64,000 nt of DNA from Emticicia sp. BO119 (lineage in GTDB: Bacteria; Bacteroidota; Bacteroidia; Cytophagales; Spirosomataceae): assembly GCF_013912375.1 (NCBI RefSeq), contig NZ_JACETV010000006.1, positions 310,001 to 374,000 on the forward strand, in the 5' to 3' direction. The notes below the pieces were generated by a model. The model saw only the letters and a program-made list of their open reading frames with translations, did not search any database and was not told the origin of the DNA. The position numbers and the translations under genes are program-made. Below are positions 59,093-63,939 of the stretch, in pieces (the stretch's first letter is position 1; each line of letters starts with the position of its first letter).

Positions 59093-60526
59093 ATGCCGCG
59101 AAATTTCTATTCCTCTGCCATTACTTTTACTGCTATCTATGCTGTTCTTATTTTGTTTAAGAGCATCGTCTATCTGTTGATTGGTGTGCAAGCCAGTAAT
59201 CTGCCATCAATCAGTGGTTGGTTTACTTTTGAGTTTCTGGTATGGTTGGTATGGGCAATTATTTTGTTGAAATACTTTCATTTCTATCGATATTCATTTG
59301 TTTTCTGGGCACTAATTCTGTCTATTGCTGCCTCTACCTTGCATTTTTTCTCCTTTCTGAGACTCATGCAGACGAAGGAGATACTCAATTATCATATTCT
59401 GTTTATTATCATTTCTCTTGTGGCAGGCATCTTGTACGCTATTGGTCTGCTCAGTTCCGATACAAGTAAAAAGCCATGGTTGAGGACAGCTGGAATTGTG
59501 TTATTGATTGTAGGAATCATTATGACTTCAGCTATTATTCTGACCATAAACTCTACCAGTTTTATGCAAAGTGGCATGCTGATGCATATAGAACAATGGA
59601 TCGGATTAGCAGGAACATTAGTGCCTATTGCCTTTATTTTTCATTTTCTGGAAGAAAAGAAAACAGGTACAGACAAACCTGCGGCTAATGTGGAATTGTG
59701 GATAAACACTATCAATTTTTCTATATTTATTATAGTTATGGGAGGATTGTACTTCTGTTCCAATTTATTGATGGATAGTCTGTATATTGATAAAAATGCC
59801 AGACGAGAAGATGCCCATCTGAAAAAACTCGCTGAACCCTTTGAAGCAGGCATCTATATCAATACCCACAACGATACCCTCCGATATCGCTTATTGAAAC
59901 CCCTTAATTATGATTCAACCAGGCGTTATCCATTAGTAGTCTGTTTGCATGGCAGTTCTGGCAGTGGGGTAGATAATCTGAAACAGATTGGCTCATCATT
60001 GCCCGTACCTTTACTTTCCAAACCTGAAAACAGAGCTAAATATCCTGCTTTTCTTTTGGTGCCCCAATGTCCTGTAGGTACTACCTGGGGAGGTATCCCT
60101 AATTTTCTGACTGTCGATTCCCTGGTTTTCGAAGTAATTGCCAAATTACAACAAAAACTTCCATTTGACACCAATCGGTATTATGTAGCTGGTAATTCTT
60201 TAGGGGGTTATGGTGTCTGGCATTTTATTTCTACTCACCCTACCTTATTTGCGGCTGCCATTCCGATTTCAGGGGCAGGAGATGCTTCCCTGGCTAAAAA
60301 CATTATCAATATACCTGTATGGGCTTTTCATGGGGCTAAAGACATCAATGTTCCGGTAATTGGCTCACGGGTAATGATTGAAGCCATGAAAAAAGCAGGA
60401 GGGCAACCAAAATACACTGAATATCCTGACAAAGCCCATAATATATGGACTGAGGTAAGTGATACGCCCGGGTTGTTGGATTGGTTGTTTGCGCAGAAAC
60501 GTGATGAACTAAAGCAAAACAATTGA
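59093..60526 (+). CDS. Membrane protein with C-terminal esterase domain
   Basis: A 477-residue two-part protein. Residues 1-235 hold about seven membrane helices. The C-terminal 230 residues are an alpha/beta hydrolase: 'YPLVVCLHGSSGSGVDN' oxyanion region, nucleophile elbow 'GNSLGGYGVWHF' with Ser369, an Asp in 'AFHGAKDINVPV', and a His in 'YPDKAHNIW'. This resembles phospholipase/carboxylesterase or CE1 feruloyl-esterase-like domains. The fusion to a helical membrane domain places the active site at the membrane, probably outside. Substrate unknown. Confidence 0.8.
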   Translation: MPRNFYSSAITFTAIYAVLILFKSIVYLLIGVQASNLPSISGWFTFEFLVWLVWAIILLKYFHFYRYSFVFWALILSIAASTLHFFSFLRLMQTKEILNYHILFIIISLVAGILYAIGLLSSDTSKKPWLRTAGIVLLIVGIIMTSAIILTINSTSFMQSGMLMHIEQWIGLAGTLVPIAFIFHFLEEKKTGTDKPAANVELWINTINFSIFIIVMGGLYFCSNLLMDSLYIDKNARREDAHLKKLAEPFEAGIYINTHNDTLRYRLLKPLNYDSTRRYPLVVCLHGSSGSGVDNLKQIGSSLPVPLLSKPENRAKYPAFLLVPQCPVGTTWGGIPNFLTVDSLVFEVIAKLQQKLPFDTNRYYVAGNSLGGYGVWHFISTHPTLFAAAIPISGAGDASLAKNIINIPVWAFHGAKDINVPVIGSRVMIEAMKKAGGQPKYTEYPDKAHNIWTEVSDTPGLLDWLFAQKRDELKQNN

Positions 60527-60536
60527 AACCATCCGA

Positions 60537-60632
60537 AACAAAAATCCGAAAGTCAAGAACCTTCGGATTTCGAAATAAAAACATCTATAAACAGTATTTC
60601 TACTGATTAAAACCTACCTGTATAGGGTTTTA
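60537..60632 (-). ncRNA. Candidate structured small RNA
   Basis: On the minus strand, a TATATTTG box (60645-60638) would start a transcript near 60632. Its first 24 bases form a hairpin (aaaacc / ggtttt, 60631-60609). A 5-bp stem closed by GAAA follows (cagta-gaaa-tactg, 60605-60592). It ends in a 9-bp stem (aaatccgaa / ttcggattt, 60570-60542) followed by 'tttgttt', a rho-independent terminator in this direction. The GNRA loop and the T run exist only on the minus strand. It has no plausible reading frame. About 95 nt. Confidence 0.5.
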
Positions 60633-60637
60633 CGTTG

Positions 60638-60669
60638 CAAATATAAAACACAATTACTTTAATTGCAAC
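60638..60669 (-). promoter_or_regulatory. Promoter of the candidate small RNA
   Basis: Minus strand GTTG (60669-60666), 20-nt spacer, TATATTTG (60645-60638). The -33 element overlaps a 15-bp dyad. Confidence 0.5.
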
Positions 60670-60678
60670 AATGTTGCA
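60664..60678. promoter_or_regulatory. 15-bp dyad TGCAACA-A-TGTTGCA, operator candidate
   Basis: Seven-base perfect arms around one base. It covers the -33 region of the minus-strand promoter and is thus in position to repress. The 7-1-7 form resembles Fur-family boxes; this link is by shape only. Confidence 0.5.
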
Positions 60679-60838
60679 TAAATTAATTAAATACAATTCT
60701 GCTACCATCTTTTCATGTTTTTAAGTCGCTAAAAAGCCTTATTTGGTCGTAACGAGGCGGTCGTCATTTAATTTTTTCTTATGTTTAAGTAAGAATTTTT
60801 AAAATAAACTAAACTTATACCCTCTCCAAGTACCTGCT

Positions 60839-60859
60839 ATTCACCCATATTGGGTGAAT
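60839..60859. promoter_or_regulatory. 21-bp dyad upstream of tldD-like gene
   Basis: attcaccca (60839-60847) and tgggtgaat (60851-60859) are perfect 9-bp arms around 3 bases, about 90 bp upstream of the gene. Probably a regulator binding site or a leader hairpin. The remaining 60680-60946 gap shows no gene. Confidence 0.5.
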
Positions 60860-60946
60860 TTTACGGTAAAAATTGCGAAGTATCGAGTTTTTTTTCATTT
60901 TTACGAATAGTATTTCATCTTTCAAACTTCAATTACTCACCCAATT

Positions 60947-62593
60947 ATGAAAAGACGGGATTTTATCCAATTGTCGGGTATGGGTCTGGGGGCTATGATG
61001 GGTTCAACCATACCTGTTTTAGGTAACATAGTTCCGGTTGAACACCTGCTCGAGCCCGGGGCTGACGCCGCTACGAAAAAGAAAATGGCCGATGTGGCAC
61101 TCAACGCCGCTAAAGCCAAAGGAGCTACTTACACCGATGTACGTATCGGACGTTATCTTCAACAGTTCCTCTTCACCCGTGAAAACAGAGTTCAGAACAT
61201 CGTAAACGCTGAGTCGTATGGTGTGGGTATCAGAGTGATTGCCAATGGTACGTGGGGATTTGCCGCCACCAGCGATGTGAGCAATGCAGGTATCGCCAAA
61301 GCAGCAGAAACTGCCGTTGCCATTGCTAAAGCCAATGCAAAAATCCAGACAGAGCCTGTGATATTGGCTCCTCAAAAAGGTGTAGGCGAAGTTGCCTGGA
61401 AAACGCCAATCAAAAAGAATGCTTTTGAGATTCCGGTACAGGAGAAAATCGACTTATTGATGAAAGTAAACAGTGAAGCCATGAAAAATGGCGCAGGCTT
61501 TGTTACTTCCAATCTGTTTTTTGTAAACGAGCAAAAGTATTTCGCATCTTCTGATGGCTCATATATTGACCAGGATGTACACCGTATCTGGCCTACATTC
61601 ACGGTAACAGCCGTTGACCGACAAGCAGGAAAATTCAAAACCCGTGATGCTATCAGCTCGCCAATGGGTATGGGTTATGAGTATTTAGATGGATTAGCAA
61701 GCGAGAAAATACCCGGACCAAATGGTCTGGTAGGGTATCGTAACTCTTATGATATGGTAGAAGATGCTATTAATGCTGCCAAGCAAGCCAAAGAAAAAAT
61801 GACAGCTAAGTCGGTTCTTCCGGGGAAATATGATTTAGTGCTTGACCCTAACCATTTAGGATTAACTATCCACGAGTCAGTAGGTCACCCGACTGAATTA
61901 GACCGTGTATTGGGATATGAAGCCAATTATGCCGGAACCAGCTTTGCAACATTAGATAAATGGAAAACCAAGAGCTTTAATTATGGTAGCAAACAAGTAA
62001 ACATTGTTGCCGATAAAACTCAGCCTTATACCTTAGGAACTGTTGGATACGACGACGAAGGCGTGCCTTGCAAAGAGTGGGATTTGATTAAAGACGGTAT
62101 TCTGGTTAACTATCAGGCTATCAGAGACCAGGTGAATATTCTGGGTGAAAAAGAATCGCATGGCTGTTGCTATGCTGATAACTGGAACTCGGTGCAATTC
62201 CAACGTATGCCGAATGTATCGCTTCGTCCGGGTGCAGAAAAACTGAACGTGATGGATATGATTAAGGGTGTAGAGAAAGGTATCTATATCATCGGTCGTG
62301 GTTCGTATTCAATTGATCAGCAACGCTATAATTTCCAGTTTGGCGGACAGCTATTTTATGAAATCAAAAATGGCGAGATAGCTGGAATGCTTGATGATGT
62401 AGCTTATCAGTCAAATACGCAGGAGTTCTGGAACTCATGTGCACAGATTTGTGACAAAGATGATTACCGTACTTTCGGTTCATTCTTCGATGGAAAAGGT
62501 CAGCCATCGCAGGTAAGCGCGGTGTCGCATGGTAGTTCTACTACTCGTTTTAATGGTGTTAACGTCATTAATACAGGCAGAAAACTTGGTTAA
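60947..62593 (+). CDS. TldD/PmbA-family metalloprotease with Tat-like signal
   Basis: A 548-residue TldD homolog. The N-terminus 'MKRRDFIQLSGMGLGAMM' with Arg-Arg-x-Phe-Ile and a hydrophobic stretch resembles a Tat signal, absent from the cytoplasmic E. coli protein. The catalytic metal motif is 'HESVGH' (309-314), matching the HExxxH of TldD, followed by 'PTELDR'. Other TldD traits: 'YTDVRIGRY', 'GVGIRVIANGTWGFAA' and 'YDDEGVPCKEWDLIKDGIL'. TldD with TldE degrades peptides, for instance in microcin maturation. The partner gene follows 29 bp later. Confidence 0.9.
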   Translation: MKRRDFIQLSGMGLGAMMGSTIPVLGNIVPVEHLLEPGADAATKKKMADVALNAAKAKGATYTDVRIGRYLQQFLFTRENRVQNIVNAESYGVGIRVIANGTWGFAATSDVSNAGIAKAAETAVAIAKANAKIQTEPVILAPQKGVGEVAWKTPIKKNAFEIPVQEKIDLLMKVNSEAMKNGAGFVTSNLFFVNEQKYFASSDGSYIDQDVHRIWPTFTVTAVDRQAGKFKTRDAISSPMGMGYEYLDGLASEKIPGPNGLVGYRNSYDMVEDAINAAKQAKEKMTAKSVLPGKYDLVLDPNHLGLTIHESVGHPTELDRVLGYEANYAGTSFATLDKWKTKSFNYGSKQVNIVADKTQPYTLGTVGYDDEGVPCKEWDLIKDGILVNYQAIRDQVNILGEKESHGCCYADNWNSVQFQRMPNVSLRPGAEKLNVMDMIKGVEKGIYIIGRGSYSIDQQRYNFQFGGQLFYEIKNGEIAGMLDDVAYQSNTQEFWNSCAQICDKDDYRTFGSFFDGKGQPSQVSAVSHGSSTTRFNGVNVINTGRKLG

Positions 62594-62622: not shown

Positions 62623-63939
62623 ATGGCAATATTAACAAAAGAAGAAGCTAAAAAGATAATTGACAAGGTTTTAGCCTACTCAAAAGCAGACGAAATGAGT
62701 GTAGGTCTGACAGGCCGTCGCACAGGAAATATTCGTTATGCCCGTAATACTGTTTCTACCAGTGGCGAATCAACTGATTTATCATTGGCGGTTACGGCCG
62801 TTTACGGCAAACGCTCAGGTACATCAACTATCAACGAGTTTGATGATGCCTCTTTAGAAAAAACAGTTCGCAGGGCAGAAGAAATCGCCAGGCTTGCTCC
62901 TGAAAATCCTGAGTATATGCCGATGTTAGGCCCACAAACCTATTTAGAATCGAATACATTCTCGCAAAGCACGGCAGATATTAACCCGGATTACAGAGCG
63001 AAAGCAGCTTTTGACAGTATTGATCCTTGCTCTAAAAAGAATCTTGTGGCCGCAGGTTATTTAGAAGATACGACAGGTTTCTTTGCTATTGGTAATAGCA
63101 AGGGTTTATTCGGTTATAATAAATCAACTTCGGTTGATTTCTCTATTACAGTTCGTACGGCTGATGGTCTGGGTTCAGGCTATGCAATCAAAGATTATAA
63201 TGATGTATCGAAACTGAATACCAAATCTGCGACTGAAGTTGCCATGCAAAAAGCGATGGCTTCGGTAAACGCTCAGGCCTTAGAGCCAGGAAAATATACC
63301 GTTATTTTAGAGCCTGCGGCATCTGTTGATTTGTTGCAAAATATGATGCGCAGCATAGATGCCCGTAATGCCGATGAAGGCAGAAGCTTTATGAGTAAAA
63401 AAGGTGGTGGTACCCGGTTAGGTGAGAAACTATTCGATGAAAGGGTAAATATCTATTCTGACCCAACAAATCAGGAAGTGCCTAATTCAGGATTCTCAGG
63501 CGATGGTCGTCCACAGGAAAAAATTAACTGGATTGAGAATGGTGTGGTTAAAAACCTATACTACTCAAGATTCTGGGCAGATAAAAAAGGAGTAAAGGCG
63601 GTTCCACCACCCAATGGCTTCCTGATGCAGGGTGGTACACAATCTTTAGCCGATTTGATAAAAGGCACCGAAAAAGGTATTCTTGTAACGCGTTTCTGGT
63701 ATATACGTGCCGTTGACCCTCAGACCTTACTCTATACAGGTCTTACACGTGACGGAACTTTCTATATAGAGAAAGGACAAATCAAATTTCCTGTAAAAAA
63801 CTTCCGTTTCAATGAAAGCCCGGTAATCATGTTGAACAATCTTGAAGCATTAGGTGCTCCGGTTCGTGTAAGTGGCAATATGGTTCCTCCAATGAAAATC
63901 AGAGACTTTACCTTCTCATCGCTTTCTGATGCGGTGTAA
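62623..63939 (+). CDS. TldE/PmbA-like partner subunit
   Basis: A 438-residue TldE-type protein: 'MSVGLTGRRTGNIRYARNTV', 'LEPGKYTVILEPAASVDLLQNM', 'SMSKKGGGTRLGEKLFDERVNIY'-like segment in 258-283, 'YTGLTRDGTFYIEKGQIKFPVKNFRFNESP' across 370-400 and 'LEALGAPVRVSGNMVPPMKI'. It lacks HExxxH, as expected for the non-catalytic partner of TldD. Unlike its neighbour it has no signal peptide. The two genes are 29 bp apart and surely form one unit. Confidence 0.9.
   Translation: MAILTKEEAKKIIDKVLAYSKADEMSVGLTGRRTGNIRYARNTVSTSGESTDLSLAVTAVYGKRSGTSTINEFDDASLEKTVRRAEEIARLAPENPEYMPMLGPQTYLESNTFSQSTADINPDYRAKAAFDSIDPCSKKNLVAAGYLEDTTGFFAIGNSKGLFGYNKSTSVDFSITVRTADGLGSGYAIKDYNDVSKLNTKSATEVAMQKAMASVNAQALEPGKYTVILEPAASVDLLQNMMRSIDARNADEGRSFMSKKGGGTRLGEKLFDERVNIYSDPTNQEVPNSGFSGDGRPQEKINWIENGVVKNLYYSRFWADKKGVKAVPPPNGFLMQGGTQSLADLIKGTEKGILVTRFWYIRAVDPQTLLYTGLTRDGTFYIEKGQIKFPVKNFRFNESPVIMLNNLEALGAPVRVSGNMVPPMKIRDFTFSSLSDAV

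Follow-up and report, generated by a model that had tools for sequence, protein, structure and literature searches.

RyhB and its functional analogues are small RNAs that are repressed by Fur and that spare iron. Among the small RNAs that adjust metal use, those for iron are well established and examples exist for manganese and nickel; zinc-controlled ones are hardly known in bacteria. Table 1 of a 2022 review (PMC9294342) lists RsaC with MntR, NikS with NikR, and s-SodF with Nur, as well as RyhB and its functional analogues, and that table has no small RNA for Zur. RsaX20 of Staphylococcus aureus is described as lying behind a Zur motif and as co-expressed with the Zur regulon (PMC5826253). 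Zur sites have been profiled in Actinobacteria, Bacilli, and Proteobacteria, and the available part of that report gives no motif for Bacteroidetes (PMC3087516); the available part of PMC8432900 has nothing on a zinc small RNA. In the open-licence literature, we found no report of a zinc- or Zur-controlled small RNA in Bacteroidota, which does not prove that there is none, and no report of any small RNA from Emticicia.

Here we describe a locus of Emticicia sp. BO119 that probably encodes an independent small RNA under the control of Zur. We analyzed a stretch of 64,000 nucleotides from contig NZ_JACETV010000006.1, which we will call the window. If the RNA is zinc-controlled, it would provide a compact and testable zinc case, with a physiologically sensible candidate target, in a genus without a detectable Hfq.

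Like RyhB, the putative RNA is short, stands alone, and has its own terminator, and its promoter is overlapped by a box of the Fur-family type. Also as for RyhB, we predict that it is derepressed when the metal is short and that it pairs near start codons. Unlike RyhB, its operator is common to zinc genes instead of iron genes, and its best candidate target is an exporter instead of metal-using enzymes. The RNA also differs from RyhB in having no match in Rfam. No covariance model matched the window at gathering scores, so we rejected membership in a known Rfam family, including RyhB; when 60300-61000 was searched with lax settings, four weak matches appeared (E = 0.57-9.5). Another difference is that we found no match to Hfq in any of the 11 genomes of the genus, with a search that was positive in 5 of 14 controls, including E. 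coli and B. subtilis. Any helper of the RNA would therefore be another protein, or there would be none.

The likeness to RsaX20 comes from the description of that RNA (PMC5826253), and S. aureus belongs to a different phylum. RsaC, NikS, and s-SodF are similar in that a small RNA is paired with a metal-sensing repressor, but they concern other metals (PMC9294342). The small RNA s479 of Haloferax volcanii is also linked to zinc transport, but it is archaeal and lies between CRISPR and Cas genes (PMC8155600).

A promoter, a putative small RNA, and a terminator on the minus strand

A first-pass annotation of the window, made from its letters alone, had proposed a small RNA on the minus strand that is controlled by a transcription factor and possibly metal- or stress-responsive. 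Direct reading of the sequence confirms the unit of dyad, promoter, and terminator that it described. The operator is a perfect 7-1-7 dyad, TGCAACA-T-TGTTGCA (TGCAACATTGTTGCA), at 60664..60678 of the minus strand, as are all elements of the unit. As had been noted, the dyad covers the -33 element GTTG (60666..60669). The -7 consensus of Bacteroidota is TAnnTTTG, and the -7 element of this promoter, TATATTTG (60638..60645), lies 33 nt from the start of the dyad and 20 nt from GTTG. A half-site, TGCAAC, is found at +39 from the start of the dyad (60634..60639).

Four bases after the -7 element, the RNA unit begins. We estimate its start from the -7 box and its end from the T run, which gives a body of about 95-97 nt (60537..60633). 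This contains hairpin 1 (60609..60631, 6 bp), hairpin 2 (60574..60604), and hairpin 3 (60542..60570), which is the stem of an intrinsic terminator and is followed by a T-rich tail to 60537. The unit has its own promoter and intrinsic terminator and no conserved coding frame, and we infer that it is transcribed. In a simple scan, the terminator was absent from the list, and promoters were not clearly more frequent than in shuffled sequences (6 found; shuffles had a mean of 3.6 and a standard deviation of 1.7).

On one side of the unit is a convergent gene for a membrane esterase or peptidase-like protein (59093..60526, plus strand), and on the other is a divergent gene for a TldD metallopeptidase (tldD; 60947..62593, plus strand). 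Both genes lie outside the unit.

The dyad recurs on promoters of zinc genes

Within the window, we found one dyad with up to 2 mismatches, which is the exact one, versus 0.46 expected from shuffles. Across the genome of BO119, there were 4 dyads with up to 1 mismatch versus none for a reversed control, and 30 versus 6 with up to 2 mismatches. The 11 genomes of the genus contained 53 dyads with up to 1 mismatch versus 4 for the reversed control.

Seven dyads in these 11 genomes are exact. Two of them are at the RNA promoters of BO119 and of Emticicia sp. 21SJ11W-3 (NZ_CP092074.1), which, as discussed below, also carries the RNA. In 21SJ11W-3, another precedes a GTPase of the ZigA type. The genomes of 21SJ11W-3 and of G001 have one each before a gene for an oxidoreductase (Pfam Pyr_redox_2) that we take to be thioredoxin-reductase-like. 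Another in G001 adjoins a gene whose product is a small membrane protein bearing a CCGLP motif. The last, in G008, is near a presumably dioxygenase-like gene and lacks the usual promoter. Some sites with 1 mismatch are inside coding sequence (L094, L095, L103, L104, and L107) and probably arose by chance. Overall, the dyad is a predicted operator that recurs, often paired and nearly identical, on other promoters.

These promoters have a favored geometry. Across the examined loci, TAnnTTTG was found 15-50 nt downstream in 31 of 110 distinct site-orientations. The commonest offset from dyad start to TAnnTTTG was 33 nt (15 of 32 offsets), as at both RNA promoters; in these counts, loci L002-L031 had been fetched with this promoter as the query, which favors the same spacing, and because the dyads are palindromic, some promoters were counted in both directions. 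Among loci that were fetched with the dyad (L033-L035 and L092-L113, with repeats removed), 33 nt accounted for 6 of 12 offsets. In 34 cases, a second dyad (up to 4 mismatches) was found at a distance of 36-40 nt, with 39 nt being the most frequent (16 cases). The RNA promoter in the window has just TGCAAC at +39, and the promoter in 21SJ11W-3 does not have even that.

Pairs of TGCAACAnTGTTGCA dyads about 39 nt apart are found on Bacteroidota-type promoters beyond the genus as well (L007, L011, L017, L019-L021, L025, and L031; the loci from the genus are L092-L113). By eye, the genes behind them include small lipoproteins, along with TonB receptors, the CCGLP membrane protein, and the ZigA-type GTPase. 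We propose the paired dyads as a candidate Zur operator of Cytophagales. Given the recurrent promoter geometry, this predicted zinc operator could be searched for in other Cytophagales.

ZigA and ZnuD are encoded by zinc-starvation genes. In 21SJ11W-3, dyads with a spacing of 39 nt lie before the gene of a COG0523 GTPase whose best NCBIfam model is ZigA (560.9 bits, with a cut-off of 600; the next model scores 186.2 bits). In both BO119 and 21SJ11W-3, a dyad with 2 mismatches precedes a TonB receptor, and a dyad pair precedes the lipoprotein gene downstream of that receptor. The best match of the BO119 receptor among solved structures is ZnuD (E = 2.3e-17); in NCBIfam, heme-receptor models score above ZnuD, and none reaches its cut-off. 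A dyad also precedes a gene for a MerC protein in BO119 (above the Pfam cut-off). So the zinc-homeostasis genes of the genus that have the same operator are those for the ZigA-type GTPase, the ZnuD-like receptor, and MerC, and the dyad is most likely a putative Zur box. The first-pass annotation had proposed a genome-wide motif search for the dyad as a check, and this search found it on the promoters of zinc genes. A metal-responsive small RNA under a transcription factor, as first proposed, is the reading with the best support, and because the operator is common to zinc genes, the metal can be narrowed from any of those of the Fur family to zinc.

The genome encodes three Fur-family proteins; none scores above a Zur cut-off, and none is diagnostically Zur. 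Iron-Fur models match the proteins on contigs C2 and C25 better. The paralogue on contig C5 (139 amino acids) has, by eye, a histidine-rich stretch and two CxxC pairs, and we consider it a candidate for Zur. We found no dyad with up to 3 mismatches in the three Fur-family loci, and so there is no sign of autoregulation.

Alternatively, the same small RNA could be controlled by the iron Fur, by PerR, or by an unrelated repressor that reads the dyad, and the signal would not be zinc. The lack of an assignment of the three Fur-family proteins by curated models fits this idea, as do the recurrent dyads at the thioredoxin-reductase-like oxidoreductase, which is not a classical zinc gene, and at two more TonB receptors in 21SJ11W-3, whose substrates are not assigned. 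Against it, the three zinc-homeostasis genes share the operator, and we consider it unlikely. We prefer control by Zur.

Two of the genes with dyads deserve mention in their own right. The thioredoxin-reductase-like gene has a dyad promoter in three Emticicia genomes (L048:3757-4665, L108:1577-2485, and L109:4449-5357), which is unexpected in a zinc regulon. And the small lipoprotein that adjoins the ZnuD-like receptor (L049:6928-7488; relatives in L102, L111, L093, and L105) contains the motif ENExIT(T/S)VKLNFT. The copy that we scanned had no match in Pfam or NCBIfam. It may bind zinc as a partner of the receptor.

Conservation of the putative RNA in two Emticicia genomes

We searched 58 genomes with the DNA of the unit, and every one of them gave matches at E up to 10. 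Among the listed matches, the whole unit was found only in BO119 and 21SJ11W-3 (78% identity, query bases 23-175 of 181); the remaining good matches of the list cover mainly the dyad and the promoter. With a covariance model, 51 of 222 genomes from the family had a match at E up to 1. The scoring was limited to at most 18 candidates in each genome, and a homologue that has diverged may have escaped it. We examined 30 of the covariance loci. The 28 that are not from BO119 or 21SJ11W-3 resemble terminators only, by eye, and no dyad along their whole length has fewer than 3 mismatches. So the covariance search of relatives that had been suggested did recover the RNA in 21SJ11W-3, but it did not extend the family to the other examined loci. 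A 20-mer from hairpin 2 was found exactly in five stretches of genome contigs, one of which is from 21SJ11W-3. We set aside the other four as chance, as they have no dyad better than 4 mismatches within 200 nt upstream. The RNA is known from just two genomes.

Between these two genomes, 83 of 94 aligned bases of the RNA body are identical, and columns 37-60 of the alignment are invariant (24/24). In comparison, the promoter spacer between the dyad and the RNA has 14 of 30 bases identical. The rest of the intergenic DNA between tldD and the dyad has 178 of 266 identical, and the DNA downstream of the RNA has 57 of 84 identical with 36 gap columns; gaps flatter both of these values. At four-fold degenerate sites, identity is 117/232 in tldD and 81/190 in the next TldD/PmbA gene. 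Because the identity of the RNA exceeds that of the spacer, the flanks, and the four-fold sites, the RNA has most likely been held by selection. It is conserved above the flanking DNA in 21SJ11W-3 despite different surroundings: the 3' neighbor is the esterase-like gene in BO119 and what we take to be a phosphatase-like gene in 21SJ11W-3.

The 5' neighbor in both RNA-bearing genomes is tldD. TldD was matched in all 11 genomes, and the most similar proteins are from G001 and G008 (99% identity), followed by 21SJ11W-3 (96%). In G001 and G008, we found no dyad better than 4 mismatches within 1.5 kb upstream of tldD, and the covariance search found nothing in them at E up to 1. By eye, their DNA resembles the window up to about the dyad and then continues without the dyad and the RNA. 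In the remaining seven genomes of the genus, there is no dyad with fewer than 3 mismatches upstream of tldD; for G004 (L121), an early contig end left less upstream DNA to read, and the stretch displayed is coding. If the TldD identities reflect the tree, the unit would have been present in the ancestor of BO119, G001, 21SJ11W-3, and G008 and have been lost from G001 and G008. Because relatives that are close by tldD do without it, the RNA is dispensable.

These relatives also bear on whether the dyad controls the divergent tldD, with the RNA being incidental or separately controlled. TldD is a metallopeptidase, and its gene is the divergent neighbor in both genomes with the dyad, so such control is conceivable. 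But the promoter that the dyad overlaps faces the other way, and the distance from the dyad to the start of tldD is about 270-290 bp. Because the 99%-identical orthologues in G001 and G008 have 1.5 kb of upstream DNA in which no dyad is better than 4 mismatches, we rejected the dyad as an operator of tldD and think this account very unlikely.

The unit might also be an antisense or 3'-end regulator of the esterase, or just a terminator region that the two convergent genes share. The genes are indeed convergent, and only 15 nt separate the stop codon of the esterase from the terminator stem. But, as the first-pass annotation had stated, the RNA ends before the coding part of the esterase, whose ORF ends at 60526, and there is no coding overlap. 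The T run after the long stem is on the minus strand only, which contradicts the idea that it is merely the terminator of the plus-strand gene, and 21SJ11W-3 keeps the RNA without having the esterase beside it. We rejected a role as a leader or terminator of the esterase on these grounds (the strand of the T run and the other 3' neighbor in 21SJ11W-3), and we consider this account extremely unlikely. The chance that the unit is a short peptide gene is negligible, and we rejected it: hairpin 2 contains an ATG that is part of an ORF of 79 aa in the window (60345-60584), but in 21SJ11W-3 the same ATG meets a stop after four codons, and no reading frame is common to both genomes. A stand-alone small RNA remains our preferred reading.

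The tldD leader contains a palindrome, ATTCACCC-ATATT-GGGTGAAT (60839-60859), which is degenerate in relatives (by eye). Two genes for metallopeptidases of the TldD/PmbA type are in a row in the window (60947-62593 and 62623-63939), and a second copy of TldD, 74% identical, is encoded just past it (G000:C25:374193-375830). Each of the 11 genomes of the genus has two TldD matches.

Predicted folding of the RNA

The whole 98 nt is predicted to fold more stably than shuffled sequences (z = -3.95, with 0 of 200 shuffles as stable), as is the 48-nt piece that bears the terminator (z = -4.35, 0 of 200). For the 5' half, which excludes the terminator, the stability is not significant (z = -1.85, 13 of 200).

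The first-pass annotation had described three hairpins, and two of these, the 5' hairpin and the terminator stem, stand. The third, a stem closed by a GAAA tetraloop (CAGTA-GAAA-TACTG, 60592-60605), is present in the sequence but is a minor alternative among the predicted folds: its pairing probability is 0.16 in BO119 and about 0 in 21SJ11W-3. In both genomes, folding favors a hairpin 2 of 13 bp that takes in the following linker and has a one-base bulge and a UUUA loop. Hairpin 2 has 30 of 31 bases conserved. A conserved ACAGGTA in hairpin 1 is unpaired in 21SJ11W-3; in BO119, only its first four bases are.

All pairs of both structures (the fold with the GAAA stem and the 13-bp fold) are kept in both genomes. 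Compensatory changes in the stems had been proposed as a check; they amount to one double change, in the terminator stem, which also has one single-sided change. Hairpin 2 has one further single-sided change, and there is no compensatory double change in hairpins 1 or 2 between the two sequences. With just these two sequences, the stem-change values were reached by 259-273 of 500 shuffles, and we give them little weight.

Candidate targets

To find places that the RNA might pair with, we first looked for a 19-mer complement, allowing up to 3 mismatches, and found 13 places in BO119 versus 16 for the reversed control and 18 versus 8 in 21SJ11W-3. We read 30 of these 31 places for neighboring genes, and a phosphodiesterase leader in 21SJ11W-3 emerged. 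From this leader we picked the 11-mer AAAACATCTAT, to which the invariant part of hairpin 2 is complementary. Genome-wide, this 11-mer is not in excess (18 places versus 26 for the reversed control in BO119 and 14 versus 20 in 21SJ11W-3). When we compared all 32 places, three proved to be orthologous between the genomes. One is within the RNA gene; the other two, in the phosphodiesterase leader and in the leader of an efflux operon, are upstream of plausible starts. Because AAAACATCTAT was picked from the phosphodiesterase leader, finding that leader is circular; finding the efflux leader is not.

The efflux leader contains 14 bases, AAAACATCTATAAA, that are perfectly complementary to the invariant part of the RNA in both genomes. 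The matching stretch of the RNA, which is the candidate seed UUUAUAGAUGUUUU, is within hairpin 2 (60578..60591). In BO119, AAAACATCTATAAA begins 16 nt before a GTG, and since a stop codon lies within the match, the start must be downstream. In 21SJ11W-3, the corresponding TTG is 17 nt on, and the frame is open further upstream, so an earlier ATG is possible there. The operon (L285:5653-11650 and L286:5853-11940) begins with the gene for a 130-aa protein; those for a pump of 1040 aa, an efflux protein of the outer membrane, and an adaptor come next. The pump matches TIGR00914 (CusA/CzcA heavy-metal efflux) with 1148.9 bits in BO119 and 1134.5 bits in 21SJ11W-3 (cut-off 701.45), and its best match among solved structures is ZneA (E = 4.8e-202), ahead of CusA (E = 2.5e-174). 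We take ZneA, a CzcA-like heavy-metal pump, to be a zinc exporter. We found no dyad with up to 2 mismatches in the 18-kb stretches around the operon in either genome, so direct control of the pump by Zur is not indicated.

The seed duplex is predicted at about -13.8 kcal/mol, and opening the site in the RNA would cost 2.1 kcal/mol in BO119 and 4.4 in 21SJ11W-3. We compared the efflux leader to 217 sampled leaders from BO119 and 143 from 21SJ11W-3, a biased sample in that many of the loci had been fetched for such complementary sites. An unbroken complement of 14 bases was reached by 1/217 and 1/143 of these leaders. By duplex energy of the whole RNA, 5/217 and 31/143 do at least as well as the efflux leader, which is not singled out. 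We put the chance that the efflux operon is a real target at about even.

A second and weaker candidate is the phosphodiesterase, which is of the alkaline-phosphatase type (Pfam Phosphodiest and Metalloenzyme). Its leader has 13 and 14 unbroken complementary bases in the two genomes, and the motif precedes the ATG by 16 nt. This motif, AAACATCTAT, is found within the last ~35 bases before the ATG in five Emticicia genomes (L167-L171), and these include genomes without the RNA: G008, G001 (with the last base changed, L169), and G003 (shifted, L171).

The complement of hairpin 1, CCTACCTGT, is more frequent than its reversed control (41 versus 22 in BO119 and 41 versus 13 in 21SJ11W-3). We classified 80 of these 82 places, all except L233 and the window's own site, and no leader recurred in both genomes.

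These observations suggest how the RNA might act. As long as there is ample zinc, the dyad over the -33 element would be occupied by zinc-loaded Zur, and transcription would be blocked. Upon zinc starvation, the promoter would open, and an RNA of ~95 nt with three hairpins would be made, ending at its own terminator. We infer that this RNA acts in trans, with the invariant 3' side of hairpin 2 (UUUAUAGAUGUUUU) pairing in antisense to leaders just upstream of start codons. Pairing with the leader of the CzcA/ZneA-type efflux operon would lower or stop zinc export during zinc shortage, while the same zinc signal would raise zinc import through the Zur genes. The full combination is tentative, and we rate it at somewhat less than an even chance: a Zur-repressed, Hfq-independent RNA of Bacteroidota that arose recently, is found in two Emticicia species, and came under a family-wide zinc operator, and that, when zinc is short, silences a CzcA/ZneA-type zinc-export operon by 14-base pairing shortly before its start codon and perhaps a zinc-type phosphatase as well.

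The protein of ~130 amino acids that heads the efflux operon in both genomes (L285:5653-6045 and L286:11491-11940) belongs to no known family.
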